Shown: piece by piece, positions 36,895 through 62,956 of the stretch
Numbering within the stretch: the stretch's first letter is position 1
How the letters are laid out: each line of letters opens with the position of its first letter
Assembly: GCA_001184205.1 (NCBI GenBank)
Contig: LBMP01000006.1
Coordinates: 124,001-188,000, forward strand
Direction of reading: 5' to 3'
DNA: 64,000 bases
DNA from: Desulfocarbo indianensis
GTDB taxonomy: Bacteria; Desulfobacterota; Desulfarculia; Desulfarculales; Desulfarculaceae
The notes under the pieces: generated by a model
What the model was told of the DNA's origin: nothing
Database searches by the model: none
Seen by the model: the letters and a program-made list of their open reading frames with translations, nothing else
Translations under genes and position numbers: made by a program

Positions 36895-36904
36895 GGGATG
36901 ACTT

Positions 36905-37384: not shown

Positions 37385-37386
37385 TA

Positions 37387-46176: not shown

Positions 46177-46206
46177 CATTCCTCCCCTTTCGGGGAGGAA
46201 TGTTTT
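46177..46206 (+). terminator. rho-independent terminator after preA
   Basis: CATTCCTCCCC (46177-46187) and GGGGAGGAATG (46192-46202) form a perfect 11-bp stem with loop TTTC, followed by TTTT. It lies only 17 bases after the preA stop and 22 before the next gene, so it splits the island into two expression units or attenuates the second hydroxylase. Confidence 0.9.
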
Positions 46207-46223
46207 CAACTTGGAGGAAAAGC

Positions 46224-47117: not shown

Positions 47118-48849
47118 AATAAAGTTTACCCTGAACGGCCGGCCCCGCACGGTGACCGCGGCCGATGACACCGTTCTGTTGGAACTGCTGCGGGATGATT
47201 TGGGCCTCACCGGCACCAAGGAAGGCTGCGGAGACGGCGAGTGCGGCGCCTGCACCGTGTTGCTGGACGGGCAGCCGGTGACCTCCTGCCTGGTGCCGGC
47301 CGCGTCCGTCGAAGGCCGGCAGGTGGAAACCATCGAGGGCGTGGGCGAGCGCCAGAAGCTCCATGCCCTGCAAAAGCAGTTTCTCGAACAAGGCGCGGTC
47401 CAGTGCGGCTTCTGCACGCCGGGCATGCTCATGTCCTCCCTGGCCCTGCTCCGCAACAACCCTTCGCCTTCGGAAGCCGACGTGCGCCAGGCCATAGTGG
47501 GCAACCTTTGCCGCTGCACCGGCTACGTCAAGATCGTGCGGGCGGTTTTGGCCGCCGCGGCCGAACTGCGCGGGGAGACGGTTACCCAACGGGAAGACAT
47601 GAGTAAGGCCGGCGCTCTGGGCAAGTCGGTGAAGCGGCTGGACGGCGTTGATAAAGTCATGGGCACCGCCAAATTCGCGGCCGATATCAGCCGGCCCAAC
47701 ATGCTGCACGCGGCCATGGTGCTCAGCCCCCATCCCCACGCCCGCATATTGAAAATCGACCCGGGGCCGGCCCTGGAAATCGAGGGGGTGGAGCGGGTGC
47801 TCACCGCCGCTGATATCCCCGGCAAGGCTAAATACGGGGTGATCGTAAAAGACATGCCCTTCCTGCCGGTGGACGAGGTGCGTTTCGTGGGCGAAGCGGT
47901 GGCCGTGGTCCTGGCCGAAAGCCCCCGCCTCGCCCGTATAGCGGCGAAGCAGGTCAAGGTGGAATACGAGCCCCTGCCCGCGATCTTCGATCCCCGCGAG
48001 GCCATGAAGCCGGAAGCCCTGTTGGTTCACGAGAGGGGCAATATCCTGCTGCACCGCAAGATACGCAAGGGCGATATCGAGGAAGGCTTCGCCAAGGCGG
48101 ACCACATCGTGGAGCGCAGCTTCAAGACCCAGACCATGGACCACGCCTACCTGGAGCCGGAGGCCGCCTTGGCCTACCTGGACGGGAACCTGCTGGTCGT
48201 GGAGTGCTGCAGCCAGGGAGCCCACTACCACCGGGTGGAGGTGGCCCGCATGCTGAACCTGCCGGTGAGCCAGGTGCGGGTGATCCAGGCGGTGACCGGC
48301 GGCGGCTTCGGAGGCAAGATAGATTTGCTTCTGCAGCATTTCGTGGCCCTGGGAACCTATGTGACCGGCCGCCCGGTCAAGATGGTTTGGAGCCGGGGCG
48401 AATCGCTCACCACCAGCACCAAGCGTCACGCCTTTTATCTCAAGTATCGTTTCGGGGCCGACCGCGACGGCCGCCTGACCGCGGCCCAGGCCGAGGTGAT
48501 CGGCAACACCGGCGCCTATGCCTCTTTCGGCCCGGCGGTGCTGACTCGTTCGGCCACCATGGCCCTGGGACCTTATGACTGCCCCAACGTTTGGGTGGAC
48601 GCCTACGCGGTCTACACCAACACCCAGATCTCCGGAGCCATGCGAGGATTCGGCGCTCCCCAGATGTCGCCTTGCCATGAGCCCATGCTGGACGAGATCG
48701 CCCGTCTCTGCGGCATCTCGCCGATTGAGATGCGCCGCAGAAACCTGGTGCGGGTGGGCTCCTCCACGGTTACCCAGCAGGTTTTGACCGCCGGGGTGGG
48801 AGCCTTGGAGACCTTGGAGAAGGTGGCGGAAAGAGCTGGTGAGCTATGA
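47110..48849 (+). CDS. molybdenum hydroxylase II: 2Fe-2S domain fused to the N-terminal half of the Mo subunit
   Basis: A 579-residue fusion. Residues 1-160: both clusters, GCGDGECGACTVLLDG and QCGFCTPGMLM with GNLCRCTGY. Residues 170-579: the first half of a Mo subunit (VKRLDGVDKVMGTAKFAADI, DEVRFVGEAVAVVLAES, TGGGFGGKIDLL, AMRGFGAPQMSP). The GQG and catalytic-Glu parts are missing here and occur in the next gene. Overall this mirrors nicotinate dehydrogenase of Eubacterium barkeri, where the Mo subunit is split into two polypeptides, but with the iron-sulfur part fused here. Confidence 0.9.
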   Translation: MAEIKFTLNGRPRTVTAADDTVLLELLRDDLGLTGTKEGCGDGECGACTVLLDGQPVTSCLVPAASVEGRQVETIEGVGERQKLHALQKQFLEQGAVQCGFCTPGMLMSSLALLRNNPSPSEADVRQAIVGNLCRCTGYVKIVRAVLAAAAELRGETVTQREDMSKAGALGKSVKRLDGVDKVMGTAKFAADISRPNMLHAAMVLSPHPHARILKIDPGPALEIEGVERVLTAADIPGKAKYGVIVKDMPFLPVDEVRFVGEAVAVVLAESPRLARIAAKQVKVEYEPLPAIFDPREAMKPEALLVHERGNILLHRKIRKGDIEEGFAKADHIVERSFKTQTMDHAYLEPEAALAYLDGNLLVVECCSQGAHYHRVEVARMLNLPVSQVRVIQAVTGGGFGGKIDLLLQHFVALGTYVTGRPVKMVWSRGESLTTSTKRHAFYLKYRFGADRDGRLTAAQAEVIGNTGAYASFGPAVLTRSATMALGPYDCPNVWVDAYAVYTNTQISGAMRGFGAPQMSPCHEPMLDEIARLCGISPIEMRRRNLVRVGSSTVTQQVLTAGVGALETLEKVAERAGEL

Positions 48850-48865
48850 GGCTAGGAGTGGAATC

Positions 48866-49858
48866 ATGATCAAGAAAGGCCGCGGATTCGCCTGCATCTA
48901 TTTTGGCATGGGCAATACCGCCAAACCCAACCCGGCGTCCGCCTACGTGGAGATGGCGGAGGACGGTTCGGTCTTGGTGCGCAGCGGCGCCGCCGATCTG
49001 GGCCAGGGCTCCGACATGGTGCTGACCCAGATAGCTGCCGAGACCTTGGGCCTGGAACCCCAGAGCGTTTCCATCATATCCGCCGACACCCTGACCACGC
49101 CCGAGGCGGGCAATAGTTCGGCCAGCCGCCAGACCTATGTTTCGGGCAACGCGGTGCGGCTCGCCGCCGAGGAAGCCAAGAGAATACTGCTGCGGGAAGC
49201 CTCCGAGCTGCTGGAGTCCAACCTGGACGACCTGGTGCTGGAGAACGGCCAGATATACGTGATCGGCTCTCCCGACCGGGGCATTTCCATCCAAAAGGTA
49301 TGCGCCAGCCTGCGCGGCCGGGGAGAACTCATCACGGCCTCGGGCTACTTCAATCCGCCCACCCCCCACATGCTGGACGCGGAGACCGGAGCCGGGATTC
49401 CCTACGGCGCTTATCACTACGCCACTCAGATGGTGGAAGTGCAGGTGGACGATGAGACCGGTCAGTTCGAGGTGCTCCGGGTGGTGGCCGGCCACGACGT
49501 GGGCCGGGTGGTGAACCCCATGGCCCTGGAAGGCCAGATCGACGGCGGCGTGGTGATGGGTTTGGGCTTCGGCGCCCTGGAAAACCTGGTGGTGGAAGAC
49601 GGCGTCGTGAAAAACACCGGTTTCGGAAGCTATCTCTTGCCCACCTCCCTGGACGCCGCGCCGGTGGAGGCCATCCTGGTGGAAGAGCCCGAGCCTACCG
49701 GCCCCTTCGGGGCCAAGGGGGCCGGAGAGCCGCCGGCCTGCCCCACGGCCGCGGCTTTGGTCAGCGCCATCCGCGACGCGGTGGGGGTGGACATCACGTC
49801 CCTGCCGGTGACCGCGGAAAAAGTCTATCTGGCCCTCAAGGAGCTGAGAGGCCAATAA
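48866..49858 (+). CDS. molybdenum hydroxylase II, C-terminal half of the Mo subunit
   Basis: A 330-residue protein from ATG 48866, with its own ribosome site AGGAG eight bases before, 16 bases after the preceding stop. It contains the cofactor Gln motif GAADLGQGSDMVLTQIAAET and the catalytic Glu in GAKGAGEPPACP, completing the half encoded just upstream. The independent start and good motifs show a genuine split gene, although an old frameshift fixed by a new start cannot be fully excluded. Confidence 0.9.
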   Translation: MIKKGRGFACIYFGMGNTAKPNPASAYVEMAEDGSVLVRSGAADLGQGSDMVLTQIAAETLGLEPQSVSIISADTLTTPEAGNSSASRQTYVSGNAVRLAAEEAKRILLREASELLESNLDDLVLENGQIYVIGSPDRGISIQKVCASLRGRGELITASGYFNPPTPHMLDAETGAGIPYGAYHYATQMVEVQVDDETGQFEVLRVVAGHDVGRVVNPMALEGQIDGGVVMGLGFGALENLVVEDGVVKNTGFGSYLLPTSLDAAPVEAILVEEPEPTGPFGAKGAGEPPACPTAAALVSAIRDAVGVDITSLPVTAEKVYLALKELRGQ

Positions 49859-49902: not shown

Positions 49903-51021
49903 ATGGCATTGACATTAATGGAAGGAAACGAGGCTATTGCCTGGGGCGCTTTCGATGCGGGCTGCCAGTTTTTCGCCGGCTATCCCATCACGCCGGCCAC
50001 CAGCATCTACAGCGCCATGCTCCAGCTCTTGCCTCCCGAAGGCGGCATAGTGCTGCAAGGCGAGGACGAGATAGCCTCCATGGGCTATTGCCTGGGGGCC
50101 TCCATGTGCGGCCACAAGGCCCTCACCGCCACCTCTGGCCCGGGCATCAGCCTTTATAGCGAGCACATCAGCTTCGCCATCGGCTCGGAGATACCGCTGG
50201 TCATCGTGAATGTCCAGCGCCTGGGGCCCAGCACCGGCTCGGCCACCCGCGGCGCGGACGGCGATATTCAGTTCATGCGCTGGTCCAACACCGGCGGGCT
50301 GCCGGCCATCGTGCTGGCGCCGGTGGACGCGGCGGATTGCTACACGCTCACTATTCATGCGTTCAATTTATCCGAGCGGTTCCGTTGCCCGGTCTTCATC
50401 GCCTCCAATAAGGAGATCGGCCTCACCAGGGAGTCGGTGGATTTCGACGCGCTGGAAAAGCCGGCCTTGGTCGAGCGCGTCGTCGCTCCCGAGGGGCAGC
50501 CCTATCTTCCCTTCCGGCCGTCTCCGGATTCCGAGGTGCCTTACTTCCTGCCCATAGGCGGAGAGCGGATCAGCCGCCAGACTTCCTCCACCCACGGCGA
50601 GAACGGCTACATCACCACCTCCCCGGCGGAAATCTCCGCCCAGATCGAGCGGCTGGAGCGCAAGCTGGTTTCGGCGGTGGATTCCTACAGTTTTCATGAG
50701 GCTGATTTGAGCGCGGGGGCCGACACGCTGGTGCTCACCTACGGGGTGAGCGCCAGGGCGGCCCGGCAGGCGGTCAATGAACTGCGCGGAAAAGGCCAGG
50801 CGGTTTCCTTGGCGGTGCTCAAGACTCTCTGGCCGGTCCCCACGGCGTTGCTCCGCCAATTGGCCCAGGGCCATAAGCGGGTCTTGGTGGTGGAGATGAA
50901 CCTGGGCCAGTACAGCCGGGAAGTGCAGCGGGTACTGACCGGCCATGAAGTCCAGCACGTGGGCCAGATGGACGGAGTTCTGATCAAACCCTCGCAGATC
51001 AAGGAGGCGGTCCATGCCTGA
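49903..51021 (+). CDS. korA: 2-oxoacid:ferredoxin oxidoreductase, alpha subunit
   Basis: A 372-residue KorA-like subunit. FAGYPITPATSIYSAML, LQGEDEIASMGYCLGASMCG, ATSGPGISLYSEHI and a C-terminal transketolase-like domain (TLVLTYGVSARAARQAV, VLVVEMNLGQYSREV) are typical. With the next gene it oxidises a 2-oxoacid to an acyl-CoA and reduces ferredoxin. In this island it could process a 2-oxoacid product of ring cleavage and supply ferredoxin to the PreA-like enzyme. The stop overlaps the next start by eight bases. Confidence 0.93.
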   Translation: MALTLMEGNEAIAWGAFDAGCQFFAGYPITPATSIYSAMLQLLPPEGGIVLQGEDEIASMGYCLGASMCGHKALTATSGPGISLYSEHISFAIGSEIPLVIVNVQRLGPSTGSATRGADGDIQFMRWSNTGGLPAIVLAPVDAADCYTLTIHAFNLSERFRCPVFIASNKEIGLTRESVDFDALEKPALVERVVAPEGQPYLPFRPSPDSEVPYFLPIGGERISRQTSSTHGENGYITTSPAEISAQIERLERKLVSAVDSYSFHEADLSAGADTLVLTYGVSARAARQAVNELRGKGQAVSLAVLKTLWPVPTALLRQLAQGHKRVLVVEMNLGQYSREVQRVLTGHEVQHVGQMDGVLIKPSQIKEAVHA

Positions 51022-52324
51022 GACAACCCTGCTGAACAGCCAGCGTCCTCCGCTTTTTTGCCCCGGATGCAGCCACGACTCCGTGCTCAAGGTGCTTGAC
51101 AAGGTATTCGTGAACATGGGGCTTGCCGCCAACCAGATATGCATGGTCTCCGACATAGGCTGCTCGGGATTGTTCGATACTTTTTTCAACACCCACGCCT
51201 TCCATGGCGTGCACGGCCGGGCGCTCACCTACGCCACGGCCATGAAGCTGTGCCGGCCCGAGCTGAACGTGGTGGTGACCATGGGCGACGGCGGCTTGGG
51301 CATCGGCGGGGCCCACGTGCTATCGGCCTGCCGCCGCAACGCGGACATCACCCTTTTGGTGCTGAACAATTTCAACTTCGGCATGACCGGCGGTCAATGC
51401 TCGGCCACCACTCCCCAAGACGCGGTGGTGGGATCGGGCTTTCTGAACCGCCTCGATCTGCCCCTGGACCTGCAAAAAGTGGCCAGGGCGGCGGGCGCGC
51501 CCTATGTGGCGGTGGCCTCTACCTACCAGAAAGACCTGGGGGCGATTCTGCGGGAGGCCATCGAATACAAAGGCTTCTCCGTGGTTGAAATCCAAGGGCT
51601 TTGCCCTGGGCGCTATACCAAGCGCAACCAGATAAGCCCCAAAAGCATAGCCGAGGAAATCGCCCCGGCCCAGGAGTTCAACGGCGAGGTGAAAGAGAAC
51701 GTGAGGCCTGACTATGGCCAGGCCTACCGGGCGCAGGCCGCGGCCCAGCGCAAGGTTCCCCGGCCCGCCGGCTTGCAAGCGCTGTACAAGCCTCCCCAGG
51801 AGGACGGCCGGCAGACCGTGATGCTGCTGGGCGCGGCGGGGCAACGGGCCATAACCGCCGGCGAGCTGGCCGGCATGGCTGGCCTGCTGGCGGGCCTGCA
51901 GGTCACCCAAAAGAACGAATACAACATCACCGTGCTGCGGGGCCCGTCCATCACCGAGCTGATCTTCTCCGCCACCCCCATAGACTACACCGGCATTACC
52001 CAGCCGGACGTGGTGTTGGCCCTGGCCCCGGAAGGGGTTGAAAGGCGTTACGGCGTTTTCGCCCAGTTGCCTTCTCAAACCCTGGTGATCCGGGCCGCCG
52101 GCGTGGAGCTGCCCGAGACCCGGGCCCAGGTGGAGACCGTGGACTTCAAGGCCCTGGGGCTGAACAAGCTGGATTGGGCCTTGGGCTCCTTGGCGGTCAT
52201 GGCCAAGATGAACAAGGTCATCAGCAGGGAGATGCTGCAAGCCGCCCTGGAAGCGCGCTTCAGGGGCAAGGTACTGGAGGCGTCCAACCAGGTGGTCGAC
52301 AAGGTCTATGCCGGGGCGGCCTGA
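51014..52324 (+). CDS. korB: 2-oxoacid:ferredoxin oxidoreductase, fused beta and gamma subunits
   Basis: A 436-residue protein. Residues 1-250 are the thiamin diphosphate beta subunit: LFCPGCSHDSVLK, VTMGDGGLGIGGAHVLSA and LNNFNFGMTGGQCSATT. Residues about 265-436 are a gamma-type domain (VMLLGAAGQRAITAGELAGM, VTQKNEYNITVLRGPSITEL, DVVLALAPEGVERRYGVF). The usual order is separate genes, so this is a fusion. No ferredoxin-like delta subunit is encoded next to it. Confidence 0.92.
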   Translation: MPETTLLNSQRPPLFCPGCSHDSVLKVLDKVFVNMGLAANQICMVSDIGCSGLFDTFFNTHAFHGVHGRALTYATAMKLCRPELNVVVTMGDGGLGIGGAHVLSACRRNADITLLVLNNFNFGMTGGQCSATTPQDAVVGSGFLNRLDLPLDLQKVARAAGAPYVAVASTYQKDLGAILREAIEYKGFSVVEIQGLCPGRYTKRNQISPKSIAEEIAPAQEFNGEVKENVRPDYGQAYRAQAAAQRKVPRPAGLQALYKPPQEDGRQTVMLLGAAGQRAITAGELAGMAGLLAGLQVTQKNEYNITVLRGPSITELIFSATPIDYTGITQPDVVLALAPEGVERRYGVFAQLPSQTLVIRAAGVELPETRAQVETVDFKALGLNKLDWALGSLAVMAKMNKVISREMLQAALEARFRGKVLEASNQVVDKVYAGAA

Positions 52325-52500
52325 ACTGAATAACTCATGGGAGCCGAACTGCGGGCGTGTCGGTATGCTTTGCTTCCCTGCCACAATGTGAGGAACACAC
52401 GCGACGTTTGCGCTATAGTTGAATTTAACCTTATCGAGGAGAGAGGCCAGCCGCCTTGCCTGATGGGCGGCTGGCGTCTTCTCCCGCCTGGAAAGCAGCG

Positions 52501-53391
52501 ATGACAGAGGCTGATAGCGTTGAGGCGGTCATCCGGATGCTGTCCCAAAGCGGTTATTATTGCGACGACGATCTTGCCATGGGGGTGTTTCTGGCCATCA
52601 AGCTGGGCAAGCCCTTGTTCCTGGAGGGCGAGCCCGGCGTGGGCAAGACCGAGATGGCCAAGGTGCTGGCCAGCAGTTTGGGCCGCAGGCTGATTCGCCT
52701 GCAATGCTACGAAGGCCTGGACGTGAGCACGGCCGTTTATGAATGGAACTACGCCAAGCAGTTGCTGAGCCTTAAATTGGCGGGAGAGGCGGGGGCCGGA
52801 CCGGAGCATCTGGAGGATGTGTTCGGCCCGGAATACCTGCTGAGCCGCCCGTTGTTGGAGGCCATCCGCTCCGAGTCCCAGGGGCAGCGCGTGGTGCTGC
52901 TCATAGATGAGCTGGACCGGGCCGACGAGGAGTTCGAGGCGTTTCTGCTGGAGCTGCTCTCGGACTTTCAGGTCACGATTCCGGAGATGGGAACCGTGGC
53001 TTCCCCGACCATACCCCTGGTGGTGCTCACCTCCAATCGAACCAGGGAGATACACGACGCCATCAAGCGCCGCTGCCTGTACCACTGGATTGATTATCCC
53101 AGCCTGGAAAAAGAGTTGCAGATAGTGCAGGCCAAGGTGCCCGGCATCGACCAGCGCCTGGCCCAGGAGATTTGCCAGCTTATGCGCCGCCTGCGCCAGG
53201 ATGACTACCTGAAGCGCCCCGGCGTGGCCGAGAGCCTGGACTGGGCCCAGGCCCTGGTCCTGTTGCACCGGGATCACCTGGACGTGGACATCGTGCGGCA
53301 AACCAAGAGCTGCCTTTTCAAGAACCGCCAGGATCTGCGCCGGTTCCAGGACGGCATCGCCAGATATATCGGCGGAGCCTTCGAAGAATAA
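52501..53391 (+). CDS. CoxD/MoxR-type AAA+ ATPase
   Basis: A 296-residue ATPase from ATG 52501 (GGAAAG before it); a TTG at 52456 is the alternative. Walker A FLEGEPGVGKTEMA, Walker B VVLLIDELDRADEEFEAF, sensor-1 VVLTSNRTREI, then a helical lid. This is the CoxD-like group that acts with CoxE to complete the sulfurated Mo active site of xanthine-oxidase-type enzymes. It overlaps the CoxE-like gene by one base. Confidence 0.92.
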   Translation: MTEADSVEAVIRMLSQSGYYCDDDLAMGVFLAIKLGKPLFLEGEPGVGKTEMAKVLASSLGRRLIRLQCYEGLDVSTAVYEWNYAKQLLSLKLAGEAGAGPEHLEDVFGPEYLLSRPLLEAIRSESQGQRVVLLIDELDRADEEFEAFLLELLSDFQVTIPEMGTVASPTIPLVVLTSNRTREIHDAIKRRCLYHWIDYPSLEKELQIVQAKVPGIDQRLAQEICQLMRRLRQDDYLKRPGVAESLDWAQALVLLHRDHLDVDIVRQTKSCLFKNRQDLRRFQDGIARYIGGAFEE

Positions 53392-54602
53392 TGGAATCCC
53401 ATTCGCCAGGCAAAACGCTGCCGGGCAGCCTGGTGATGGCGCTTCTGGCCTTTGCCGGGCGTTTGCGCGCCGACGGCTTCAGCATCAGCCCCGCCCAGGT
53501 GAGCGATTGCCTGCGGGCCATGGAGCTGGTGGGGCTGGCCAGCCGCAACCGCCTGCGGGCGGCCATGGAGCACGTTTTTGTTTTCAAGCAAAAAGATCTG
53601 CAAAGGTTCCGGCGGCACTTCGAGGAATTCTGGCGCATGGAGCCTTGGCCGGCCCAGGACGACGACCCCTCCCTGGCCTTGGACCTGGAAGGCCCCAAGG
53701 AGGCCCGCAGCGTCCAATCCATGCATGAGAACGCCAGCGAGGAGGCGGACCGGGAGACCATCGGAGCCGGCCTGGAGGTGGTCAAAGCGTCCGTGGATTT
53801 CAGCAGGCTCCAGTTCGACGACCTGGAGCAGGTGCGGGAGCAGGTCTCGCGCATGGCCCGCAAACTGGGCAAACGCCTGAGCCGGCGCCAGGTGAATCGA
53901 AAACGCGCTTACAAGCTGGACATACGCCGCAGCGTGCGGCGCGGCCTGCAACATGGCGGCGAATTGGTAAAGCCGGTTTTCCGCAAGCGCCGTGAAGGCC
54001 GCTTGCAGATATACGCCCTGGTGGACGTCAGCGGCTCCATGGCGGTGTACGGCTATTTTTTTCTGCTCTTCCTGCACAGCCTGCAGAAAGTCTGGCCCTC
54101 CACCTATTCGTTTGTTTTCAGCACCCACCTGACCCCGGTGGGACAGAGCCTGGCAGAGAACGACTTCGGCCGGGCCTGGAACCAGGTGCTCGCCTCCGGC
54201 GCCAACTGGTCCGGCGGAACCAACATGGGCGACTCTTTCATGAAGTTTTACCGCAGCCATCTGCGGCCCGCCTCGGCTTCCCGGGCGCTGGTGATCATCG
54301 TGAGTGACGGCTGGGACAGAGGGGCTCCCGAGCGCCTGGACGAGTCGCTGGGCTTGATCAGCGGGCATTGCCGCCGGCTCTATTGGCTCAATCCGCTTCT
54401 GTCCGGCCCCAACTACCAGCCAATCTGCCAGGGCATGAGCGTCGCGCTGCCTCATCTGGATTATTTTTTGCCTTTTTATAATCTCAAGACACTGGAAGAT
54501 TTTTGCCGCCGCCTGGAAGGCGCGGATGATATGGCTCGTTGGAGCGGAGAACGTATTTGGGCGGAGGCTTGCGAGGCGGTCGAGGCCGGAAAGGAACTGT
54601 AG
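53391..54602 (+). CDS. CoxE-like von Willebrand factor A domain protein
   Basis: A 403-residue protein. The C-terminal half has a VWA domain with an intact metal site (LVDVSGSMAVYG, then GGTNMGDSF, SDGWDRG). The N-terminal half has SLVMALLAFAGRLRADGFSI, the CoxE start motif. CoxE works with CoxD (the adjacent ATPase) in maturing molybdenum hydroxylases. The start codon overlaps the stop of the preceding gene, so they are translationally coupled. Confidence 0.92.
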   Translation: MESHSPGKTLPGSLVMALLAFAGRLRADGFSISPAQVSDCLRAMELVGLASRNRLRAAMEHVFVFKQKDLQRFRRHFEEFWRMEPWPAQDDDPSLALDLEGPKEARSVQSMHENASEEADRETIGAGLEVVKASVDFSRLQFDDLEQVREQVSRMARKLGKRLSRRQVNRKRAYKLDIRRSVRRGLQHGGELVKPVFRKRREGRLQIYALVDVSGSMAVYGYFFLLFLHSLQKVWPSTYSFVFSTHLTPVGQSLAENDFGRAWNQVLASGANWSGGTNMGDSFMKFYRSHLRPASASRALVIIVSDGWDRGAPERLDESLGLISGHCRRLYWLNPLLSGPNYQPICQGMSVALPHLDYFLPFYNLKTLEDFCRRLEGADDMARWSGERIWAEACEAVEAGKEL

Positions 54603-54605
54603 ACC

Positions 54606-55406
54606 ATGTCTCTTCATCTCACGGTATTGGTAAAAGGCGCGGGCGAGATGGCCACCGGCGTGGTGCAGCGGCTGCATTGCTGCCATCTGCGGGTGGCGCT
54701 GACCGAGGTGGCCGCTCCCCTGGCGGTGCGCAGGGCGGTCTCCTTTTGCGAAGCGGTTTATGACCAGCGCAAGGTGGTGGAGGGCGTCGCCGCGGTTTTG
54801 GTGAATCGCCCGGAGGAAATGGAAGCGGTTTGGCAAAAGGGCGAGATCCCGCTGCTGGTGGACCCGGAAACCGAGGTGCTGGATTATCTGAAACCCGATG
54901 TCCTGGTGGAGGCCACCCTCAACAAACACAATACCGGCGTCAGCAAGGCGGACGCCCCCTTGGTGATCGCCCTGGGGCCGGGCTTCGAGGCCGGGGTCGA
55001 CGCGCACGTGGTGATCGAGAGCAACCGCGGCCATAACCTGGGGCGGCTCATCGAAGAGGGCCGGGCCGAGCCCAACACCGGGGTGCCGGGCAATACGGCA
55101 GGCTACACCATCGAGCGGGTGCTGCGAGCGCCGGCCGACGGCGTGTTCGACTGCGACTGCGCGCTGGGAGATAGGGTGGAAAAGGGCCAGGTGGTGGGCC
55201 GGGTCGCTTCCCAGCCGGTGGTGGCCCAGGTGGGGGGCATATTGCGGGGCCTTATCAGACCTCAATCACGCGTATGGGAGGGCCTCAAGATCGGCGACGT
55301 GGACCCGCGCAGCGATAAGGCGTTCGTGCACACCATCAGCGAAAAAGCCCGCGCTCTGGGCGGATCGGTGGTGGAAGCCATCATGCGGGTTTATAACCGG
55401 CCATAA
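54606..55406 (+). CDS. yqeB: YqeB/EF2563-like protein of the selenium-dependent molybdenum hydroxylase system
   Basis: A 266-residue protein. N-terminal Rossmann-like VLVKGAGEMATGVVQRLHCC, DVLVEATLNKHNTGVSKADA and ALGPGFEAGVDAHVVIESNR, then RAPADGVFDCDCALGDRVEK in a C-terminal barrel. These match the YqeB/EF2563 family, whose genes co-occur with selenium-dependent molybdenum hydroxylases. It is last in the CoxD-CoxE-YqeB group, three bases after CoxE. The EF2568-like desulfurase at 57.6 kb is a second member of the same system. Confidence 0.87.
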   Translation: MSLHLTVLVKGAGEMATGVVQRLHCCHLRVALTEVAAPLAVRRAVSFCEAVYDQRKVVEGVAAVLVNRPEEMEAVWQKGEIPLLVDPETEVLDYLKPDVLVEATLNKHNTGVSKADAPLVIALGPGFEAGVDAHVVIESNRGHNLGRLIEEGRAEPNTGVPGNTAGYTIERVLRAPADGVFDCDCALGDRVEKGQVVGRVASQPVVAQVGGILRGLIRPQSRVWEGLKIGDVDPRSDKAFVHTISEKARALGGSVVEAIMRVYNRP

Positions 55407-55413
55407 AAATTAC

Positions 55414-55443
55414 GGGCGGCCCTCCCGCAGGCGGCGGCCGCCC
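55414..55443 (+). terminator. terminator-like hairpin after yqeB
   Basis: GGGCGGCC (55414-55421) and GGCCGCCC (55436-55443) form an 8-bp stem with a 14-base GC-rich loop, seven bases after the stop; TGTTT follows. It ends the catabolic island. Confidence 0.7.
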
Positions 55444-55743
55444 TGTTTCAGGTTACAGGCTTTTCGCGCTGCTATATGAAGCCGGCAACGTTTCAGCAGC
55501 GCCGCCGATTAAGTCCCATAATCCATTCATTCCGGAGCGGCCTTGGCGTCGTCTGAGGCCGCGGACGCCTCATCTCAGCAACCCACACATCATTTGACCG
55601 GCCCGCGCCCATAGGGCTATGATAGCAGCCGCTGGACGGGAATGTGGTTCGGGCCCGGGGCGGCCCGAATTCAAAGAGCGCTACGGCGGCACGGGCCGAT
55701 AAGATTCATGGCTCCCTGGCGGGCCGCATCCCAAGGTTAGGTC
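55444..55743. other. intergenic region before cstA
   Basis: About 300 bases with no gene. It should hold the cstA promoter; no clear -35/-10 pair or riboswitch was seen. Confidence 0.45.
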
Positions 55744-57495
55744 ATGAACACATTAATCGTAAGCATCATAATATTAGTCTGGTTCGCCCTGGCCTATTTC
55801 TTCTATGGCCGCTTCATCGCGGGCGCCCTGGTCAAACCAGACAACGGCAATGCCACCCCGTCCCATCTGCTCAACGACGGCCTGGACTACAGCCCCAGCA
55901 AACGCCGCTTTTTGTGGGGCAACCACTTCGCCTCCATCGCCGGGGCCGGCCCCATAATCGGACCCATCGTGGCCATCTCCTATTTCGGCTGGGGCCCCAC
56001 CCTCTTGTGGGTGGCCATCGGCGCGGTGTTCATGGGCGCGGTGCACGATTACCTGGCGCTCATGATGTCGGTGCGCCACCAGGGGCGCGGCATCAGCGAG
56101 CTGGCCTCCCTCACGGTGGGCCGCGCGGCGGCCGCCATGTTCGCCATCATGCTTTATTTCGTGCTGGTGCTGTTGATCGCCGTTTTCATGGTGAGCGTGG
56201 CCCACGCGCTCATCAACATGCCCGCCCTGGTCATACCCACCTTCGGCCTGGTGGGCGTGGCGGTTCTCCTGGGCCTGGCCCTGGAGCGCTGGCGCATTCC
56301 CGAACTCATCGCCTCTCCCCTGGCCGTGTTTCTGGCCTATTTCCTGATCTGGGTGGGCTACCATCTGCCCATCTCGCTGCCCGCGTTTTTGGGCGAGCAG
56401 GGCGTCATGGCGGTGTGGCTGGTAGTGCTGGCCGCCTATTGCCTCCTGGCCTCGGTGGCGCCCATGTGGCTCTTGCTCAAGCCCCGCGACTTCATCTCCG
56501 GCATCAAGCTCGCCGTGGGCATGCTCCTGGGCTTCGCGGCCATCCTGGTGGTGCAGCCGGCCATCAACGCGCCCTTTCATGAGGGCGTCCTGGTTTCGCA
56601 CGGCAAACCCTTGTGGCCCATCCTCTTTATATTGGTGGCCTGCGGCGCCATCAGCGGCTTCCACGCCATAGTGTCCACCGGCACCACCGCCCGCCAGCTC
56701 GACCGGGAAAGCGACGGACGCCCCATAGCCTTCGGCGGCATGCTCATGGAGGGCGCGCTGGCTCTGTTGGTGATCATGGTGGTATCGGCCGGGCTCAAGT
56801 GGGGCGAGGCCCCGGCCGGCCTGGGCGCGGAGGCGGCCAATCATTATTTCGCCACCGCCTTGAGCAAAGGCTGGATCGTGGCCTTCGGCTCCGGCTTCGG
56901 CCACGTGGTGAGCGCGTTGGAAATCCCGGTGCTCACCGCCGGCATCGCCGCCCTGTTGGGCGCGGTCATGGTCAAGAGTTTCATCCTGACCACCCTGGAC
57001 GCCGGCACCCGCCTGGCCAGGTTCTTGATCAACGAATCCCTGGGCAAGAAAATCCCGGTCCTGGGCGGGCTGTGGATAGCCTCGGCGCTGGTGCTGGCGC
57101 CGGCCTTTCTGCTGGCGCTCACCAACACCTATTCCCAGGTGTGGAAGCTCTTCGGCGCGGCCAATCAGCTCATCGCCGCCGTGACCCTGCTCACCATCAC
57201 CGCCCTCTTGGCCACCAAGAACCTGCCCAGGCGCTACACCCTGGCGCCGGCGGTGTTCATGTTGGTCACCACCAGCGCCGCGCTCTTGTGGGAGATGTTC
57301 AGCCCCAAGAGCGGCTATTTCACCGGCCCGCAGCCGGACTGGTACCTGGGCGGCATCGCCGCCGTGCTCATCATTCTGGAGTCGGTGGTGGTCTTCAAAA
57401 GCTGGCAAGCCATCCAAGCCGCTAAGACGCCAGCGGTCCCCTCGGAGCCCACGGGCCTCCAGGTGGAGAGAACCGGCCACAAGCTGGCGCTGTAA
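55744..57495 (+). CDS. cstA: CstA-family peptide/pyruvate transporter
   Basis: A 583-residue protein with about sixteen helices. Diagnostic CstA motifs are ATPSHLLNDGLDYSPSKRRF, GNHFASIAGAGPIIGPI, GAISGFHAIVSTGTTARQLD and the C-terminal FGAANQLIAAVTLL. CstA members carry peptides or pyruvate across the inner membrane. It is alone between two islands. It may provide carbon under starvation, or take up a related 2-oxoacid; the substrate is not known. Confidence 0.94.
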   Translation: MNTLIVSIIILVWFALAYFFYGRFIAGALVKPDNGNATPSHLLNDGLDYSPSKRRFLWGNHFASIAGAGPIIGPIVAISYFGWGPTLLWVAIGAVFMGAVHDYLALMMSVRHQGRGISELASLTVGRAAAAMFAIMLYFVLVLLIAVFMVSVAHALINMPALVIPTFGLVGVAVLLGLALERWRIPELIASPLAVFLAYFLIWVGYHLPISLPAFLGEQGVMAVWLVVLAAYCLLASVAPMWLLLKPRDFISGIKLAVGMLLGFAAILVVQPAINAPFHEGVLVSHGKPLWPILFILVACGAISGFHAIVSTGTTARQLDRESDGRPIAFGGMLMEGALALLVIMVVSAGLKWGEAPAGLGAEAANHYFATALSKGWIVAFGSGFGHVVSALEIPVLTAGIAALLGAVMVKSFILTTLDAGTRLARFLINESLGKKIPVLGGLWIASALVLAPAFLLALTNTYSQVWKLFGAANQLIAAVTLLTITALLATKNLPRRYTLAPAVFMLVTTSAALLWEMFSPKSGYFTGPQPDWYLGGIAAVLIILESVVVFKSWQAIQAAKTPAVPSEPTGLQVERTGHKLAL

Positions 57496-57614
57496 AGAGG
57501 GAGGGGCCGCAAACGGGGCAGGGCTTTCGCGGGTTGGCGTTTTCTAAAACCGCCGCCCATCCTTGAGCGCGCCGCCGCCTGACCTAGAGGCGTCCGATGC
57601 CATCTTGCAATAAT

Positions 57615-58760
57615 TCAGCTCTTAGCGCCCAACATTTCCGCCAAGGCAGAGAGTAAGGCCTCCACGTCTTCGCCGGTGCTGTAGCGGCCCAGGCTGGCGC
57701 GTATGGCGCCGGCGTCGCCGTTGCCCAGGTCCTCATGCGCCAGGGGAGCGCAGTGCAGGCCGGCGCGCACCGCGATGCCGTAATCGCCGTCCAGCACCAT
57801 GCCCGCGTCGCCAGGCGACCAGCCCGCCAGGTTGAAAGAAACCAGGGGCACGCGTTGCGGGCCGTGGCCGGGGCAATGCAGGGTGACCCCGGCCAAATCC
57901 TGCAACCCCTCCACCAGCCGTCGGTGCAGGGTCGCCTCGCGCCGGCCCGCCTCCTGGGCCTCGGGGGTTTGCAGGTAATCCAGGCAGCGGCCCAGCATGA
58001 GGATGCCCAGGAGATTCACCGTGCCCGCTTCCAGACGTTCGGGATATTCCCGACTGGGCAGAGGGCTGGCCGAGTCCAGGCCGGTGCCGCCGAAACGGCT
58101 GGGCCGCACCTCCAGCGCGGGGTCCAGCACCAGGCCGCCTATGCCGGTGGGGCCCAGCAGCGACTTGTGGCCGGTGAAGGCCAGGCCGGCCACGCCCCAT
58201 TGGCGCATGCGGATGGGCGTCACCCCGGCGCTTTGGGAAACGTCCAGGATCAAGGGAACGCCCCGCTCTTGGCAGACGGCGCCGATCTCCGCGGCCGGCT
58301 GCACCGTGCCCAGGACGTTGGAGGCGTGGTTGAGCACCACCAGCTCCGTGGCGGGGCGGATGGCCCGGGCCACGGCCTCGGGCTCCACCAGACCCAGGCG
58401 GTTGCAGGGAACCAGATCATAGGTGCAGACGCCGGCTTCCCGCAGGTGGTGCAGGGGACGCAGAACCGAGTTGTGCTCCAGGCGGGTGCTGACCACGTGG
58501 CCGCCCGGCTTCACCAGGCCCTGCAGCAGGGTGTTGAGGGCGTCGGTGGCGTTGTAGCCGAAACAGGTGACAAAGCCTTCCCCTCCGAAGAAGGCCGCCA
58601 CCTGCTCCCGCACCGCCCGCACCCTCTCCTGGGCCAGGACGGCCGCGTCATAGCCGCCGCGGCCGGGCGAGGCGCTGATCTGAAAATACTCGGACAAGGC
58701 CTGCTCATGGCAGCGCTGGGGCTTGGGAAAGCTGGTGGCGGCGTTGTCCAGGTAAATCAT
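57615..58760 (-). CDS. cysteine desulfurase family protein (EF2568-like)
   Basis: A 381-residue class V aminotransferase-fold enzyme using pyridoxal phosphate. MIYLDNAATSFPKP, LNHASNVLGTVQPAAEIG, FTGHKSLLGPTGIGG with the Schiff-base Lys, and AGLHCAPLAHEDLG with the catalytic Cys are intact. The TSFPKP form is typical of the EF2568 branch, which co-occurs with selenium-dependent molybdenum hydroxylases, rather than of housekeeping IscS/SufS. Last in an operon with a Mop-type oxidoreductase and a TusE-like protein, so it likely supplies sulfur or selenium to the Mo centre. Confidence 0.88.
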   Translation of the reverse strand: MIYLDNAATSFPKPQRCHEQALSEYFQISASPGRGGYDAAVLAQERVRAVREQVAAFFGGEGFVTCFGYNATDALNTLLQGLVKPGGHVVSTRLEHNSVLRPLHHLREAGVCTYDLVPCNRLGLVEPEAVARAIRPATELVVLNHASNVLGTVQPAAEIGAVCQERGVPLILDVSQSAGVTPIRMRQWGVAGLAFTGHKSLLGPTGIGGLVLDPALEVRPSRFGGTGLDSASPLPSREYPERLEAGTVNLLGILMLGRCLDYLQTPEAQEAGRREATLHRRLVEGLQDLAGVTLHCPGHGPQRVPLVSFNLAGWSPGDAGMVLDGDYGIAVRAGLHCAPLAHEDLGNGDAGAIRASLGRYSTGEDVEALLSALAEMLGAKS

Positions 58761-58787
58761 GCTTACGCTTCCCGCGCGTCGGGTTAC

Positions 58788-59150
58788 TCAGTTGCAGGTC
58801 TTGGGGTTGGGCAGGCCGGCCAGGCGGCGGGCGCCGTCCTTGAGGCCGCCGGGGAAAAGCCCTTGCAGCTCCAGCAAGCTGAGGCCGGCGCCTTTCTTAA
58901 GGTCCCGGTTCAAGGGCGCCCGCCCGTGGTACTCGTAATACTCCCGCAAGAAACGGATGATCCGCCAGTGGTCCTCTTGCAGCTTCGCCAGGCCGCTTTC
59001 GGCGGCCAGCTCTTGGGCGGCCTCCTCGTTCCAGTCGTCGTAGCTCCAGAAAAAGCCCTCCGCGTCAAAGGCGATATCCCGGCCGGCGACCCTCCTCAAA
59101 TGCCTGCCGCCGGCGGCGGCCTGGCCTGTGGCCTCCTTGCCTTGGCCCAC
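58788..59150 (-). CDS. TusE/DsrC-like sulfur carrier
   Basis: A 120-residue protein, GTG start at 59150. The DsrC-like fold is seen in GFFWSYDDWNEEAAQELAAE, EDHWRIIRFLREYYEYHG and the C-terminal AGLPNPKTCN. The penultimate Cys is present but the second Cys found ten residues earlier in true DsrC is replaced (GARRLAGLP), so it is TusE-like and unlikely to serve sulfite reduction. It lies between the Mop-type gene and the desulfurase gene, which suggests relay of sulfur or selenium to the molybdenum enzyme. Confidence 0.85.
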   Translation of the reverse strand: MGQGKEATGQAAAGGRHLRRVAGRDIAFDAEGFFWSYDDWNEEAAQELAAESGLAKLQEDHWRIIRFLREYYEYHGRAPLNRDLKKGAGLSLLELQGLFPGGLKDGARRLAGLPNPKTCN

Positions 59151-59153
59151 GGC

Positions 59154-61826
59154 CTAGGCTTTCCGCGCGCCCATGGCCGCCAGAATCTTTTCCGGCGTGG
59201 CCGGCAGATCGCAGATAAAAACCCCGATGGCGTCCTTGATGGCGTTGATCACGGCGGGCGCGGTGGGCACCATGCACATCTCCCCCACGCCGGTGCAGCC
59301 CAGGGGGCCCTTGTCGCGGGGCGTCTCCCGGATGATGACCTCGTGGGCGAAGGAGGTGTTGATGGTGGGGAACTTGAAGGTGCGCCAATCCTTGGTCTTG
59401 CCGGCCACGTATTGCTCGCGCAGGGCCAGGCCCACCCCCATGTCGGCCCCGCCTTCCAGTTGCCCGGTCAGGTTGAGCGGATTGATCACCGGCCCGGCGT
59501 CCACCGCGGTGGTCATCTTCAGCACGGAGACCTCTCCGCGCTCGGTGTCCACCTCCAGCTCCACCATCTGCACCGCGTGCACCTGGGATTCGAAAGATGG
59601 TCCCTGGCCGGTTTCCGGGTCCAGCGGCCCGGCGTCTTCGTTGTTCTTGCGGCCCAGGTAGCGCGCGGGTTTGCCGGCGGCCGTTAGTTCGCCGGCTGTG
59701 CGCGCGCCGCTGGCGGCCATGGCCTCCTTCAGCCGGTTGATGGCGTCCACCAGCGCGCCGCCGATCATGTAGGTGATGCGGCTGCCCGCCGCCGGGCCCG
59801 AGGCCGCGGTCTGATCGGTGGAGCGGGTGTGGAGGCGAACCTTGTCCAGCGGCAGGCCCATGAGCTGGGCGGCCAACTGGGTAAGCATGGAGTCGTTGCC
59901 CTCGCCGGGATCGGCCGCGGCCGCGTAGATGCTGAGGCCGCCGTCCTGGTCCAGCTCCACCGCCGCCACTGAGGAATCGCCCGGACCGCCGATGCCGAAG
60001 GAGCCGGTGGCCAGACCCACCCCCCGCCGCATGCGCCCATTTGAGGTTGCGGCGGCCTCTTGCTTGGCCTTTTGGTAATGGGGCCGCATGGCCTCCATCA
60101 GCTCGGGAATCGGCCATTGGCTGACCGCGCGGCCGGTGGACTTTTCCTGCCCCGGCTTCAGGAAATTTTGCAGGCGGAACTCGAAGGGGTCCAGGCCCAG
60201 CCGGTCGGCCAGCATTTCCATGGCCACCTCCAGGGCGAAGTTGACCTGGGGCGGCCCCGCGCCCCGGGCGGCCGCGCCCCAGGGGTTGTTGGTGTAGACC
60301 AGCTTGCTGTCGGCCTTGACGTTGGGAATATGGTAGGAGCCGGAAAGCATGAGCATGGCCCGGGTGACCACCACGTTGCCCATGGAATGGTAGGCGCCGT
60401 TATCCACCAGGATGTCGTTGCAATAGGCGGTGAGCTTGCCGCCGGCGTCCGCGGCCAGCTTGACGTCCATGCGGAAGGGATGGCGCTTGGGGGTCATGAG
60501 CATGGATTCATGCAGGCTGGGGATGTAGCGCACCGGCTGGCGGAAGTGGATGGCCGCCGCCGCGCAGAGGCCCTCGCTCACCACGTCGATCTTGATGCCG
60601 AACTGGCCGCCGGTGAAGGACTCTTCGTAGCGCATGTTTTCCCAGCCCAGGGCTTCCTGCAGCATGCCCAGGTGATGGTGGATGTTGATGCTGCGGCCCA
60701 CCACCACCAGTTGGGGCTCGTCCTCGTCGTCCTCATGATCCCAATAGGCCACGGTGGCCTCGGGCTCCAGGGGCGCCTGATGATTGAGCTGAGTTTGGAA
60801 GCGGGCCTCCATCACGGCGGCGGAGCGGGCCAGGGCGCTATCCGCGTCGCCTTTGATCTGGGGCTGGCGAAAGCAGAGGTTGGGCCGGTCGTGGTCGGCG
60901 TGCAGTTGCAGCGCGTCTTCGGCCATGGCCTCTTGCGGGCTGTGCAGCGCCGGCAGGGGCTCCAGCTCCACCGCCAGGACGCGGAGCGCGGCCTCGGCCT
61001 CGGCCTTGCTGCGGGCGGCCACCAGCGCGATGGCGTCGCCCACGTAGCGCACCCGGTCGGGGCACAGCACCGGACGGTCCGCCACCAGGTACTTGAGGAT
61101 GTTGGTGCCTCGGATGTCCTTGGCGGTCATCACCCCGGCCACGCCGGGCATGGCCTCGGCGGCGGCGGCGTCGATGGATTTAATAATGGCGTGCGGAACC
61201 TCGCTGCGCAGCACCGCAATTTCCAGCGCGCCGGGAATTTTATAATCGGCGGTGAAGCGGGCGACGCCGCAGGCCTTGGCCAGGGCCGAGGGCCGGGGAT
61301 GGGAAACGCCCATGGCGCCTTCCGAGGGCTTGGGCGCCACCTCTTGGGGGGTGGTTTCGCCGCGCAAGAAGCGCGCCGCCAGCCTGACCGCCGCGATGAT
61401 CTTGAGGTAGCCGGTGCAGCGGCAGAGGTTGCGCCGCAGGGCCTTTTTGATGGCGTCGTCGTCGGGGTCCGGGCTGCGGTCCAAAAGCGCCTTGGCGGCC
61501 ATGATGAGGCCGGGAGTGCAAAAGCCGCACTGCACGGCGCCCGCCAGGACAAAGGCCTGCTGGATCAGATGGGGATTGTCCGGGGTGCCCAGCCCCTCCA
61601 CGGTGATTACTTTGGCTCCGTTCAGGCTTCTCAGTTTGGCCAGGCAGGACATCGCCGCCTTGCCGTCCACGATCACGGTGCAGGCTCCGCACTGGCCCTT
61701 TCGGTCGCAGGATTGTTTGGTCCCGATCAAACCCAAATCATCGCGCAGGTAGTCCAGCAGGACCTGATCCTTGTCCGCCAGCACCTCGCGCCGCAGACCG
61801 TTCACCTCGAAAACCACCTTTTTCAT
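59154..61826 (-). CDS. Mop-type aldehyde oxidoreductase, fused 2Fe-2S and Mo subunit (molybdenum hydroxylase III)
   Basis: An 890-residue protein from ATG 61826 (ribosome site GGGAGC), close to the ~907 residues of Desulfovibrio gigas Mop. Residues 1-160 hold two clusters (DRKGQCGACTVIVDG, QCGFCTPGLIM, NLCRCTGYLK). The rest is the Mo part: RVRYVGDAIALVAARS, TGGQFGIKIDVV, AARGAGPPQ and CTGVGEMCM with the catalytic Glu. The cofactor motif is DPGEGND, where most relatives have GQG. It has no FAD domain, as in Mop. Probably oxidises aldehydes to acids. A frame extension to 61988 lacks a ribosome site. Confidence 0.93.
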   Translation of the reverse strand: MKKVVFEVNGLRREVLADKDQVLLDYLRDDLGLIGTKQSCDRKGQCGACTVIVDGKAAMSCLAKLRSLNGAKVITVEGLGTPDNPHLIQQAFVLAGAVQCGFCTPGLIMAAKALLDRSPDPDDDAIKKALRRNLCRCTGYLKIIAAVRLAARFLRGETTPQEVAPKPSEGAMGVSHPRPSALAKACGVARFTADYKIPGALEIAVLRSEVPHAIIKSIDAAAAEAMPGVAGVMTAKDIRGTNILKYLVADRPVLCPDRVRYVGDAIALVAARSKAEAEAALRVLAVELEPLPALHSPQEAMAEDALQLHADHDRPNLCFRQPQIKGDADSALARSAAVMEARFQTQLNHQAPLEPEATVAYWDHEDDEDEPQLVVVGRSINIHHHLGMLQEALGWENMRYEESFTGGQFGIKIDVVSEGLCAAAAIHFRQPVRYIPSLHESMLMTPKRHPFRMDVKLAADAGGKLTAYCNDILVDNGAYHSMGNVVVTRAMLMLSGSYHIPNVKADSKLVYTNNPWGAAARGAGPPQVNFALEVAMEMLADRLGLDPFEFRLQNFLKPGQEKSTGRAVSQWPIPELMEAMRPHYQKAKQEAAATSNGRMRRGVGLATGSFGIGGPGDSSVAAVELDQDGGLSIYAAAADPGEGNDSMLTQLAAQLMGLPLDKVRLHTRSTDQTAASGPAAGSRITYMIGGALVDAINRLKEAMAASGARTAGELTAAGKPARYLGRKNNEDAGPLDPETGQGPSFESQVHAVQMVELEVDTERGEVSVLKMTTAVDAGPVINPLNLTGQLEGGADMGVGLALREQYVAGKTKDWRTFKFPTINTSFAHEVIIRETPRDKGPLGCTGVGEMCMVPTAPAVINAIKDAIGVFICDLPATPEKILAAMGARKA

Positions 61827-61986
61827 CGCCTGCTCCCAACTGGCTCCAACTCGATGCAATGTTTCTATGTCGTTGATTGGTCGCGTGGAGTTTAGGGTAA
61901 TGGACTGAAGCAATAATATCACTAAAGCCCATGCAAGCCTGTCTTCCGGCCGAGCTTTTAGCCATGGCGGGAATTCCGCAATCCGC

Positions 61987-62083: not shown

Positions 62084-62956
62084 TTATTTTTGGGCCTTGG
62101 CCGTATCCAGCATGCGGGGGAAGTTGGAGTCGAAGTAGGGGCCCTGCACCATCTGGTCGCAAAAGGCATAGCCGGCGGAGACCACGCTGTTTACTTTCAG
62201 GCCATCCTCTTTTGATATGAGCCAGGGGCCTCCCGAGGAGCCGCTGGTGAAGGACGACCCCACCCAAATCGGTTTGGGCTCGCCCATGCTGTCGTTGGCC
62301 GCGCCGAAGGCGGATTCGTTATACCAGAGACGGTAGCCGTCGTAGGCGGGCTCTCCCGGATAGCCGGCTTGCTGCCAGGTGTGATAATAGCCCTCTGTCC
62401 AGGCCGTGCCCAGCCAGCCGGTGGTGTGGCCCGGCGTGCTGTGCAATTTCACCATGGCGTAGTCGAAACGGAAATCGCCGTAATTGATCCACGACGCCCA
62501 GGCCCAAAGGTATTTTCCGTAATGCAGGCCGAAGGGAGCCGAATCGTTGCGATAGCCCGGCACGAATACCATCTGGCTGGACCACACGCCGTTGTAGACC
62601 ACGCAATGGCCGGCGGTTATGATCAGGTTTGCTTCCACCAGGGAGGCGCTGCAGGCGTACCATTGGTCGCCCTGCTTGACGAAGAGCCTGCCAATGGCTG
62701 AATGGGGATAGGCGGTGGTGTTGGTTTCCTCCCAGGTGCGATAAGGCGAGGGAGGGCAGGAGGGCGTTTCGCTGACGCCGAAGGGGGAGTCCAGTTTCAC
62801 GTCCAGGGGTTTGGCCTGGGCGGCGATTTCCGCCAGGTTCAGTTCGGACAGGCTGAAATCGCGTTCTATCTCCTTGCCCACCAGTTCCGGACCGGCCCAG
62901 GCCGGAGCCCAGAGGGCCGTCAACAGCAGCATCAGCATCAACAGCTTGAATTTCAT
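62084..62956 (-). CDS. secreted trypsin-like serine protease (V8/Glu-endopeptidase type)
   Basis: A 290-residue protein with signal peptide about 1-21 (TALWAPAWA) and a ~60-residue propeptide-like segment. The catalytic triad is visible: His in LIITAGHCVV, Asp in RFDYAMVKL and Ser in TSGSSGGPWLI. The layout (SAIGRLFV, CSASLV, TAGHC) fits S1B bacterial proteases that act outside the cytoplasm. No partner gene or inhibitor is adjacent; it has its own terminator. Substrate unknown. Confidence 0.9.
   Translation of the reverse strand: MKFKLLMLMLLLTALWAPAWAGPELVGKEIERDFSLSELNLAEIAAQAKPLDVKLDSPFGVSETPSCPPSPYRTWEETNTTAYPHSAIGRLFVKQGDQWYACSASLVEANLIITAGHCVVYNGVWSSQMVFVPGYRNDSAPFGLHYGKYLWAWASWINYGDFRFDYAMVKLHSTPGHTTGWLGTAWTEGYYHTWQQAGYPGEPAYDGYRLWYNESAFGAANDSMGEPKPIWVGSSFTSGSSGGPWLISKEDGLKVNSVVSAGYAFCDQMVQGPYFDSNFPRMLDTAKAQK

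Follow-up and report, generated by a model that had tools for sequence, protein, structure and literature searches.

The window examined in this work, 64,000 nucleotides of Desulfocarbo indianensis DNA (contig LBMP01000006.1, positions 124,001 to 188,000 of the forward strand), carries three molybdenum hydroxylases, at 36010-39669, 46200-49858 and, on the minus strand, 59154-61835, and two groups of genes that converge tail to tail (Table 1). The minus-strand group is a triad consisting of a single-chain hydroxylase, a DsrC/TusE-family protein and an EF2568-like cysteine desulfurase, with intergenic gaps of 3 nt and 27 nt, respectively; the plus-strand group ends in closely spaced genes for CoxD-like, CoxE-like and YqeB proteins. 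A preliminary description of positions 54606-61826 had joined YqeB, EF2568, CoxD/CoxE-like factors and three hydroxylases into one maturation set for selenium-dependent molybdenum hydroxylases. These proteins are all present in the window, and YqeB is far above the cut-off of its model, but only one of the hydroxylases and neither CoxD nor CoxE lies within that segment, the EF2568-like protein scores just under the cut-off of its family, and the open reading frame (ORF) of the DsrC/TusE family, situated between the EF2568-like gene and the hydroxylase, had been overlooked. We propose, with a probability of roughly 0.6, that two separate systems meet at this locus, a selenium-cofactor side on the plus strand and the hydroxylase-DsrC-EF2568 triad on the minus strand.

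Table 1. Genes of the two convergent groups and their neighbours in the window, with the profile and structure matches found for each
Feature	Position	Strand	Matches and remarks
Single-chain molybdenum hydroxylase, Desulfovibrio gigas aldehyde oxidoreductase type (triad gene 1)	59154-61835	-	Fer2, Fer2_2, Ald_Xan_dh_C, MoCoBD_1, MoCoBD_2; start set at ATG 61835, open ORF reaches 61988
DsrC/TusE-family protein, 120 aa (triad gene 2)	58788-59150	-	TIGR03342 76.6 bits (cut-off 53.5); PF04358 93.8 bits (cut-off 24.9), E=1e-26
EF2568-like pyridoxal phosphate (PLP) cysteine desulfurase / possible selenocysteine lyase (triad gene 3)	57615-58760	-	TIGR01977 368.1 bits
YqeB (EF2563 family), selenium-cofactor accessory protein	54606-55406	+	TIGR03309 344 bits (cut-off 220), E=5e-103
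CoxE-like VWA-domain protein	53391-54602	+	PF05762 (VWA_CoxE) 175 bits; ends 3 nt before YqeB
CoxD-like AAA+ ATPase	52456-53391	+	NF047784 MadB_ATPase E=9e-79, below cut-off; AAA_5; 1-nt overlap with CoxE
Flavin adenine dinucleotide (FAD) subunit, nicotinate-dehydrogenase-like hydroxylase	46200-47117	+	PF00941, PF03450
Fused [2Fe-2S] and NdhL-like molybdenum subunit	47110-48849	+	3hrd_A best PDB match; TIGR03311 best NCBIfam model
NdhM-like molybdenum subunit, 330 aa	48866-49858	+	ATG at 48866; 3hrd_B best PDB match
IorA/B-like genes (2-oxoacid oxidoreductase pair)	49903-52324	+	
CstA-like transporter separating the two groups	55744-57495	+	PRK15015 CstA 212 bits (cut-off 1188)

An alignment of the DsrC-like protein with its counterparts from 8 relatives was used to scan 84,980 species genomes, and the best 80 of the 88 relatives obtained were analysed. 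These fell into two non-overlapping groups, 21 loci with 54-76% identity and 59 loci with 43% or less. In the first group, the hydroxylase gene lies directly upstream of the DsrC-like gene at every locus (21/21, 58-79% identity) and the EF2568 gene directly downstream at 20, the contig ending at this point in the remaining one; among the other 59 loci, none has the hydroxylase and only two have an EF2568 match (29% and 40%). The 21 loci correspond to one side of a branch with support values of 99/99 in a tree built on a short alignment, in which other rows carry a long-branch warning. Judged by record titles, the clade includes Desulfarculaceae, Syntrophobacteraceae, Syntrophaceae, other deltaproteobacteria, Chloroflexota, Actinomycetota and Bacillota (Desulfotruncus), a spread over at least four phyla, and all of the triad loci except that of Desulfotruncus come from metagenome-assembled genomes (MAGs). 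The distance matrices of the three genes were correlated pairwise (r=0.751, 0.808 and 0.828; n=17), with none of 5000 permutations giving a value as high, a correlation that also reflects shared species history. One Syntrophobacteraceae MAG, bog_1154, holds two different copies of the triad (L059, L065).

The same association was seen at closer range. In the taxonomic order to which the window belongs, all eight relatives with a hydroxylase of 66-80% identity keep both the DsrC-like and the EF2568 genes (in one case, L042, the sequence breaks off after 38 aa of EF2568), and none of the seven hydroxylase loci with 37-44% identity has either gene within 1.5 kb. In one class of Chloroflexi, 8 of 151 genomes contain the DsrC-like gene, with EF2568 adjacent in all eight and the hydroxylase visible in seven. 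Clustering of the ORFs within about 6 kb of 22 triad loci revealed no further gene cluster common to them beyond clusters confined to a few loci or to close kin; because antisense ORFs are pooled as well by this procedure, we read as genes only those three clusters that correspond to the triad. Partners of the TusA, TusBCD or MnmA type were not among the shared clusters within this distance, the remainder of each genome lying outside the search.

Among PDB entries, the triad hydroxylase is closest to D. gigas aldehyde oxidoreductase (1sij/1vlb, E=8.7e-175, residues 7-889), and agrees with it in this full-length match and in domain order, with two 2Fe-2S domains followed by molybdenum domains and no FAD domain, but differs in being encoded together with DsrC-like and desulfurase genes. 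Its catalytic glutamate, E852, is invariant in 19/19 sequences and aligns with the residue that we take to be E869 of the D. gigas enzyme. The scores against TIGR03311 (582, cut-off 830) and NF045668 (775.6 bits, cut-off 1100) fall below the cut-offs. The DsrC-like protein matches DsrC structures, best 1ji8 (E=3.7e-23), and has, in the window copy as in the proteins of all 21 related loci, a cysteine at the last, second-last or third-last position; the position 11 residues before it, CysB, as read by eye from the C-terminal tails, is arginine in the same 22 proteins. It thus lacks the pair of cysteines that marks DsrC proper, the partner of sulfite reductase. In the EF2568-like protein, the PLP lysine Lys199 and Cys337 are both invariant (19/19), and all 19 triad members scanned match the TIGR01977 family (best E=1.3e-129).

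Gene content, gene order, co-inheritance, the conserved cysteines and independence of YqeB are thus observed for the triad. The triad is probably a dedicated chalcogen-loading module for its own hydroxylase, the transfer steps and the choice of sulfur over selenium being what we infer. Enzymes of this hydroxylase family depend on a molybdenum that bears a terminal sulfur (Mo=S) or selenium (Mo=Se) ligand. The EF2568-like PLP desulfurase would form a persulfide on Cys337 with sulfur abstracted from cysteine (or with selenium from selenocysteine), the cysteine at the end of the C-terminal arm of the DsrC-like protein would accept this persulfide, and the arm would bring the sulfur (or selenium) to the hydroxylase or to its cofactor, where it would become the terminal ligand. 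In DsrC of Allochromatium vinosum, the penultimate cysteine is the only one to be persulfurated, the sulfur coming from IscS plus cysteine or from sulfide, and organisms that lack DsrAB usually have another residue in place of the other DsrC cysteine (PMC3397948). In Rhodobacter capsulatus, the desulfurase NifS4 supplies sulfur for the terminal molybdenum ligand to the XdhC-held cofactor (PMC2997495), and in carbon monoxide (CO) dehydrogenase, sulfur is added to the folded enzyme, in which molybdenum lies about 17 A beneath the surface (PMC4240915). A DsrC-type arm with a terminal cysteine would plausibly suit such a buried molybdenum site.

Among known systems, the triad is similar to the IscS-TusA-TusBCD-TusE relay of tRNA thiolation and to DsrEFH-DsrC in combining a desulfurase with a DsrC/TusE protein that has a single reactive C-terminal cysteine, but the gene that accompanies them encodes a molybdenum hydroxylase instead of MnmA or DsrAB. 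The proposed use of desulfurase-derived sulfur for the terminal molybdenum ligand would be shared with NifS4-XdhC of R. capsulatus xanthine dehydrogenase and with ABA3/MOCOS of eukaryotes; in the CoxD route of CO dehydrogenase, the sulfur comes from an unknown source. Whereas these known routes of molybdenum sulfuration use XdhC, CoxD or a MOSC domain, the carrier in the triad would belong to the DsrC family. Other observations weigh against a loading module. XdhC-type chaperones, two of which are present in the genome, could load the triad enzyme instead, and the EF2568-like protein narrowly misses the TIGR01977 cut-off of 377 and falls well short of that for SclA (NF040779, 286.8 against 525).

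The conserved cysteine of the DsrC-like protein might also be read differently, in that the protein may be a substrate carrier, a redox partner (with a thiol-bound substrate, or a persulfide oxidised by the hydroxylase) or a regulator, EF2568 serving to keep it charged. DsrC of sulfur oxidisers has been proposed to bring substrate sulfur to DsrAB (PMC3397948), and the lack of any conserved XdhC-like or MocA-like neighbour of the triad in the clustering of the 22 loci would agree with such a role. We nevertheless regard it as unlikely, as the hydroxylase retains its catalytic glutamate and aligns with aldehyde oxidoreductases from end to end, and the DsrC-like protein is without the second cysteine needed for the DsrC disulfide cycle.

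If YqeB, EF2568, CoxD/CoxE and the neighbouring hydroxylase at 59154-61835 formed one selenium-maturation set, as the preliminary description had it, the triad enzyme would be a YqeB-dependent selenium hydroxylase. Several observations are in keeping with this: all nine genomes of the order with the triad hydroxylase also carry YqeB, of 20 triad genomes, 19 have a selD above the cut-off (six of the 20 coincide with assemblies of the order, as their identical coordinates show), and EF2563, EF2567 (SelD), EF2568 and EF2570 of Enterococcus faecalis are found in one locus (PMC2432076). However, YqeB is above the cut-off in only 11 of these 20 genomes; the nine without it include Chloroflexota, an actinomycete and a deltaproteobacterium, and, with the caveat that MAGs can miss genes, their existence argues that the triad works without YqeB. 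Conversely, of the 17 order genomes that have YqeB, 8 are without the triad hydroxylase. At the locus itself, a transporter separates YqeB from EF2568, which is encoded on the other strand, and in Desulfotruncus arcticus DSM 17038, a named strain that has both the triad (L073) and a full YqeB cluster (L208), the two are separate and the YqeB cluster has a different EF2568 protein. A single set is therefore quite improbable; a common operon of EF2568 and YqeB was rejected on the grounds of the opposite strands and of the nine triad genomes without YqeB. The triad EF2568 belongs to the same family, TIGR01977, as E. faecalis EF2568/SclA, but differs in its scores below both cut-offs and in having no selD neighbour.

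The triad could also load selenium independently of YqeB, EF2568 acting as a selenocysteine lyase that charges a DsrC-family carrier, from which selenium would be inserted directly onto molybdenum. The near-universal selD of the triad genomes would fit this as well, as would the preference of E. faecalis SclA (EF2568) for selenocysteine over cysteine (PMC13188914). In the Chloroflexi class, 7 of the 8 genomes that carry the DsrC-like gene have selD, compared with 59 of the 143 that do not carry it (Fisher one-sided p=0.013), an association that hints at selenium but is confounded by kinship and by unequal genome size and completeness. Against selenium use by the triad stand the nine genomes without YqeB, one triad MAG (G032) that has neither selD nor selA, and the distribution of selA, which was found in 22 of the 25 genomes examined and, among the 14 triad genomes that do not belong to the order of the window, explains selD in 12. 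Because selA usually accompanies selD, selD is not an orphan and does not establish that the triad uses selenium; orphan selD as a proof of such use was rejected on these counts. In addition, the window EF2568 scores lower on the SclA model than the EF2568 protein of the D. arcticus YqeB cluster, which reaches 375. Direct selenium loading by the triad is accordingly doubtful, and we put the odds that the triad loads sulfur rather than selenium at about 3 to 1. A Limnocylindrales MAG (G029; L170, L210) has selD (a 744-aa open frame), YqeB (a 608-aa open frame) and the triad but no selA and, if complete, is a candidate for selenium use through hydroxylases alone.

SelD, YqeB and YqeC together are the published signature of the selenium-cofactor trait (PMC5029168; PMC2276186), to which we assign the plus-strand system. 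The checks suggested by the preliminary description located selD (375.9 bits, cut-off 125) on the minus strand at G000:C1:157070-157993 (L024) and yqeC (TIGR03172, 139 bits, cut-off 73) in the genome. The absence of selD, which would have refuted that description, is thereby excluded, the signature is complete, and the production of one or more selenium hydroxylases is likely; a YgfJ/MocA-like protein also exists, but its match is weak. To this extent the claim that at least one enzyme carries molybdenum-bound selenium is supported, although the best candidate lies upstream of the segment for which it was made. The selD gene has one in-frame TGA at what we take, from Escherichia coli SelD, to be the catalytic cysteine position, suggesting that SelD itself is probably a selenoprotein; a degenerate DNA pattern tried on the selD locus had no useful outcome. 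With selA also present (605.6 bits), selenocysteine is probably made in D. indianensis. In total, the genome holds two XdhC, two YqeB and 12 MoCoBD_1 (molybdenum-binding domain) proteins. The second YqeB (363.9 bits; contig C301, L211:9607-11504), 57% identical to that of the window, adjoins xdhC and has a three-subunit hydroxylase nearby, which is the classical arrangement. In Clostridioides difficile, a yqeB deletion resembles selD mutants on xanthine and uric acid, and a yqeC deletion has no obvious phenotype (PMC11448449). Compared with the trait as described by Haft & Self (2008) and Zhang et al. (2008), D. indianensis has the same SelD, YqeB (in two copies), YqeC, XdhC and several hydroxylases, but the genes are scattered over contigs instead of forming one cluster, SelD serves selenocysteine as well, as judged from selA, and YgfJ is weak.

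The likeliest candidate for molybdenum-bound selenium in the window, as far as its sequence can tell, is the hydroxylase at 46200-49858, which is on the strand of YqeB, about 4.7 kb before it. Its molybdenum subunit is split in two chains, with the same L/M boundary as in nicotinate dehydrogenase of Eubacterium barkeri (3hrd): residues 169-578 of the fused chain align with residues 7-417 of the 425 of 3hrd_A (E=1e-117), and the NdhM-like chain aligns with 3hrd_B from residue 1 (E=3.2e-81), both being 330 aa long. The window enzyme differs in the fusion of the [2Fe-2S] domain to the L-like chain. For the FAD subunit, 3hrd_C is among the PDB matches, but CO dehydrogenase flavoproteins score higher. 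The crystal structure of 3hrd presumably shows molybdenum-bound selenium, and an active-site residue that we take to be Tyr13 of NdhM is Phe in the window protein, if this numbering is right. Nicotinic acid hydroxylase of E. barkeri is among the few characterised selenium hydroxylases (PMC2276186). The YqeB cluster of D. arcticus (L208) contains the same split hydroxylase, with chains of 425 and 330 aa that are 45.6% and 44.6% identical to those of the window. Its neighbours there are YqeB (308.7 bits), YqeC (166 bits), an XdhC-type protein, the EF2568-family protein, which is above its cut-off (475.7 bits), and a MocA-like protein that falls just short of the cut-off (184.2 bits). This compact cluster includes a TRAP transporter too.

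Four points count against this view of the plus-strand group. Both molybdenum chains of the candidate miss the TIGR03311 Se_dep_XDH cut-off of 830 (the fused chain with 561, the NdhM-like chain with 151), the run of genes from the hydroxylase to YqeB is interrupted by the unrelated IorAB-like genes, and the best YgfJ/MocA-like score in the genome (TIGR03310) is 96.3 bits, below the cut-off of 186.45, YgfJ/MocA being a frequent but non-defining member of the trait. Furthermore, CoxD and CoxE adjoin YqeB in only a few relatives (L190, L200 and, with CoxD alone, L189). In L193, L202, L205 and L210, YqeB adjoins YqeC and/or XdhC, unlike YqeB of the window, and paralogues of CoxD and CoxE on contig C268 of D. 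indianensis (L212:5953-9309), 88% and 71% identical to those of the window, have XdhC, not YqeB, directly after them.

As for the surrounding genes, the segment 39990-46160, preceding the candidate hydroxylase, encodes a TRAP transporter, a DUF2848 protein, a nitrilase-family amidase and a PreA-like dihydropyrimidine dehydrogenase, and looks like a catabolic cluster for N-heterocycles. The CstA-like transporter probably belongs to neither mechanism. Upstream of the triad, the gene at 62084-62956, called by sequence alone, encodes a trypsin-like secreted protease that has no counterpart in the related loci. No tRNA gene was found when the window and four loci were scanned.

The selenium part of this locus is an instance of a known trait; the triad is a new element outside the known selenium signature. 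In the titles and abstracts of open-licence literature, no operon pairing DsrC/TusE with a molybdenum hydroxylase and a desulfurase was found, and one text, PMC10920352, mentions DsrC and aldehyde oxidoreductase. Should the triad load selenium after all, its DsrC-family protein would be a selenium carrier of a novel type, and bacteria would have one more route for selenium into their products beside selenocysteine, selenouridine and YqeB. If, as we favour, it is a loading module dedicated to its hydroxylase, the DsrC family would gain a new role, and the loading step could be rebuilt from three purified proteins, namely the hydroxylase, its own desulfurase and a carrier with a single cysteine.

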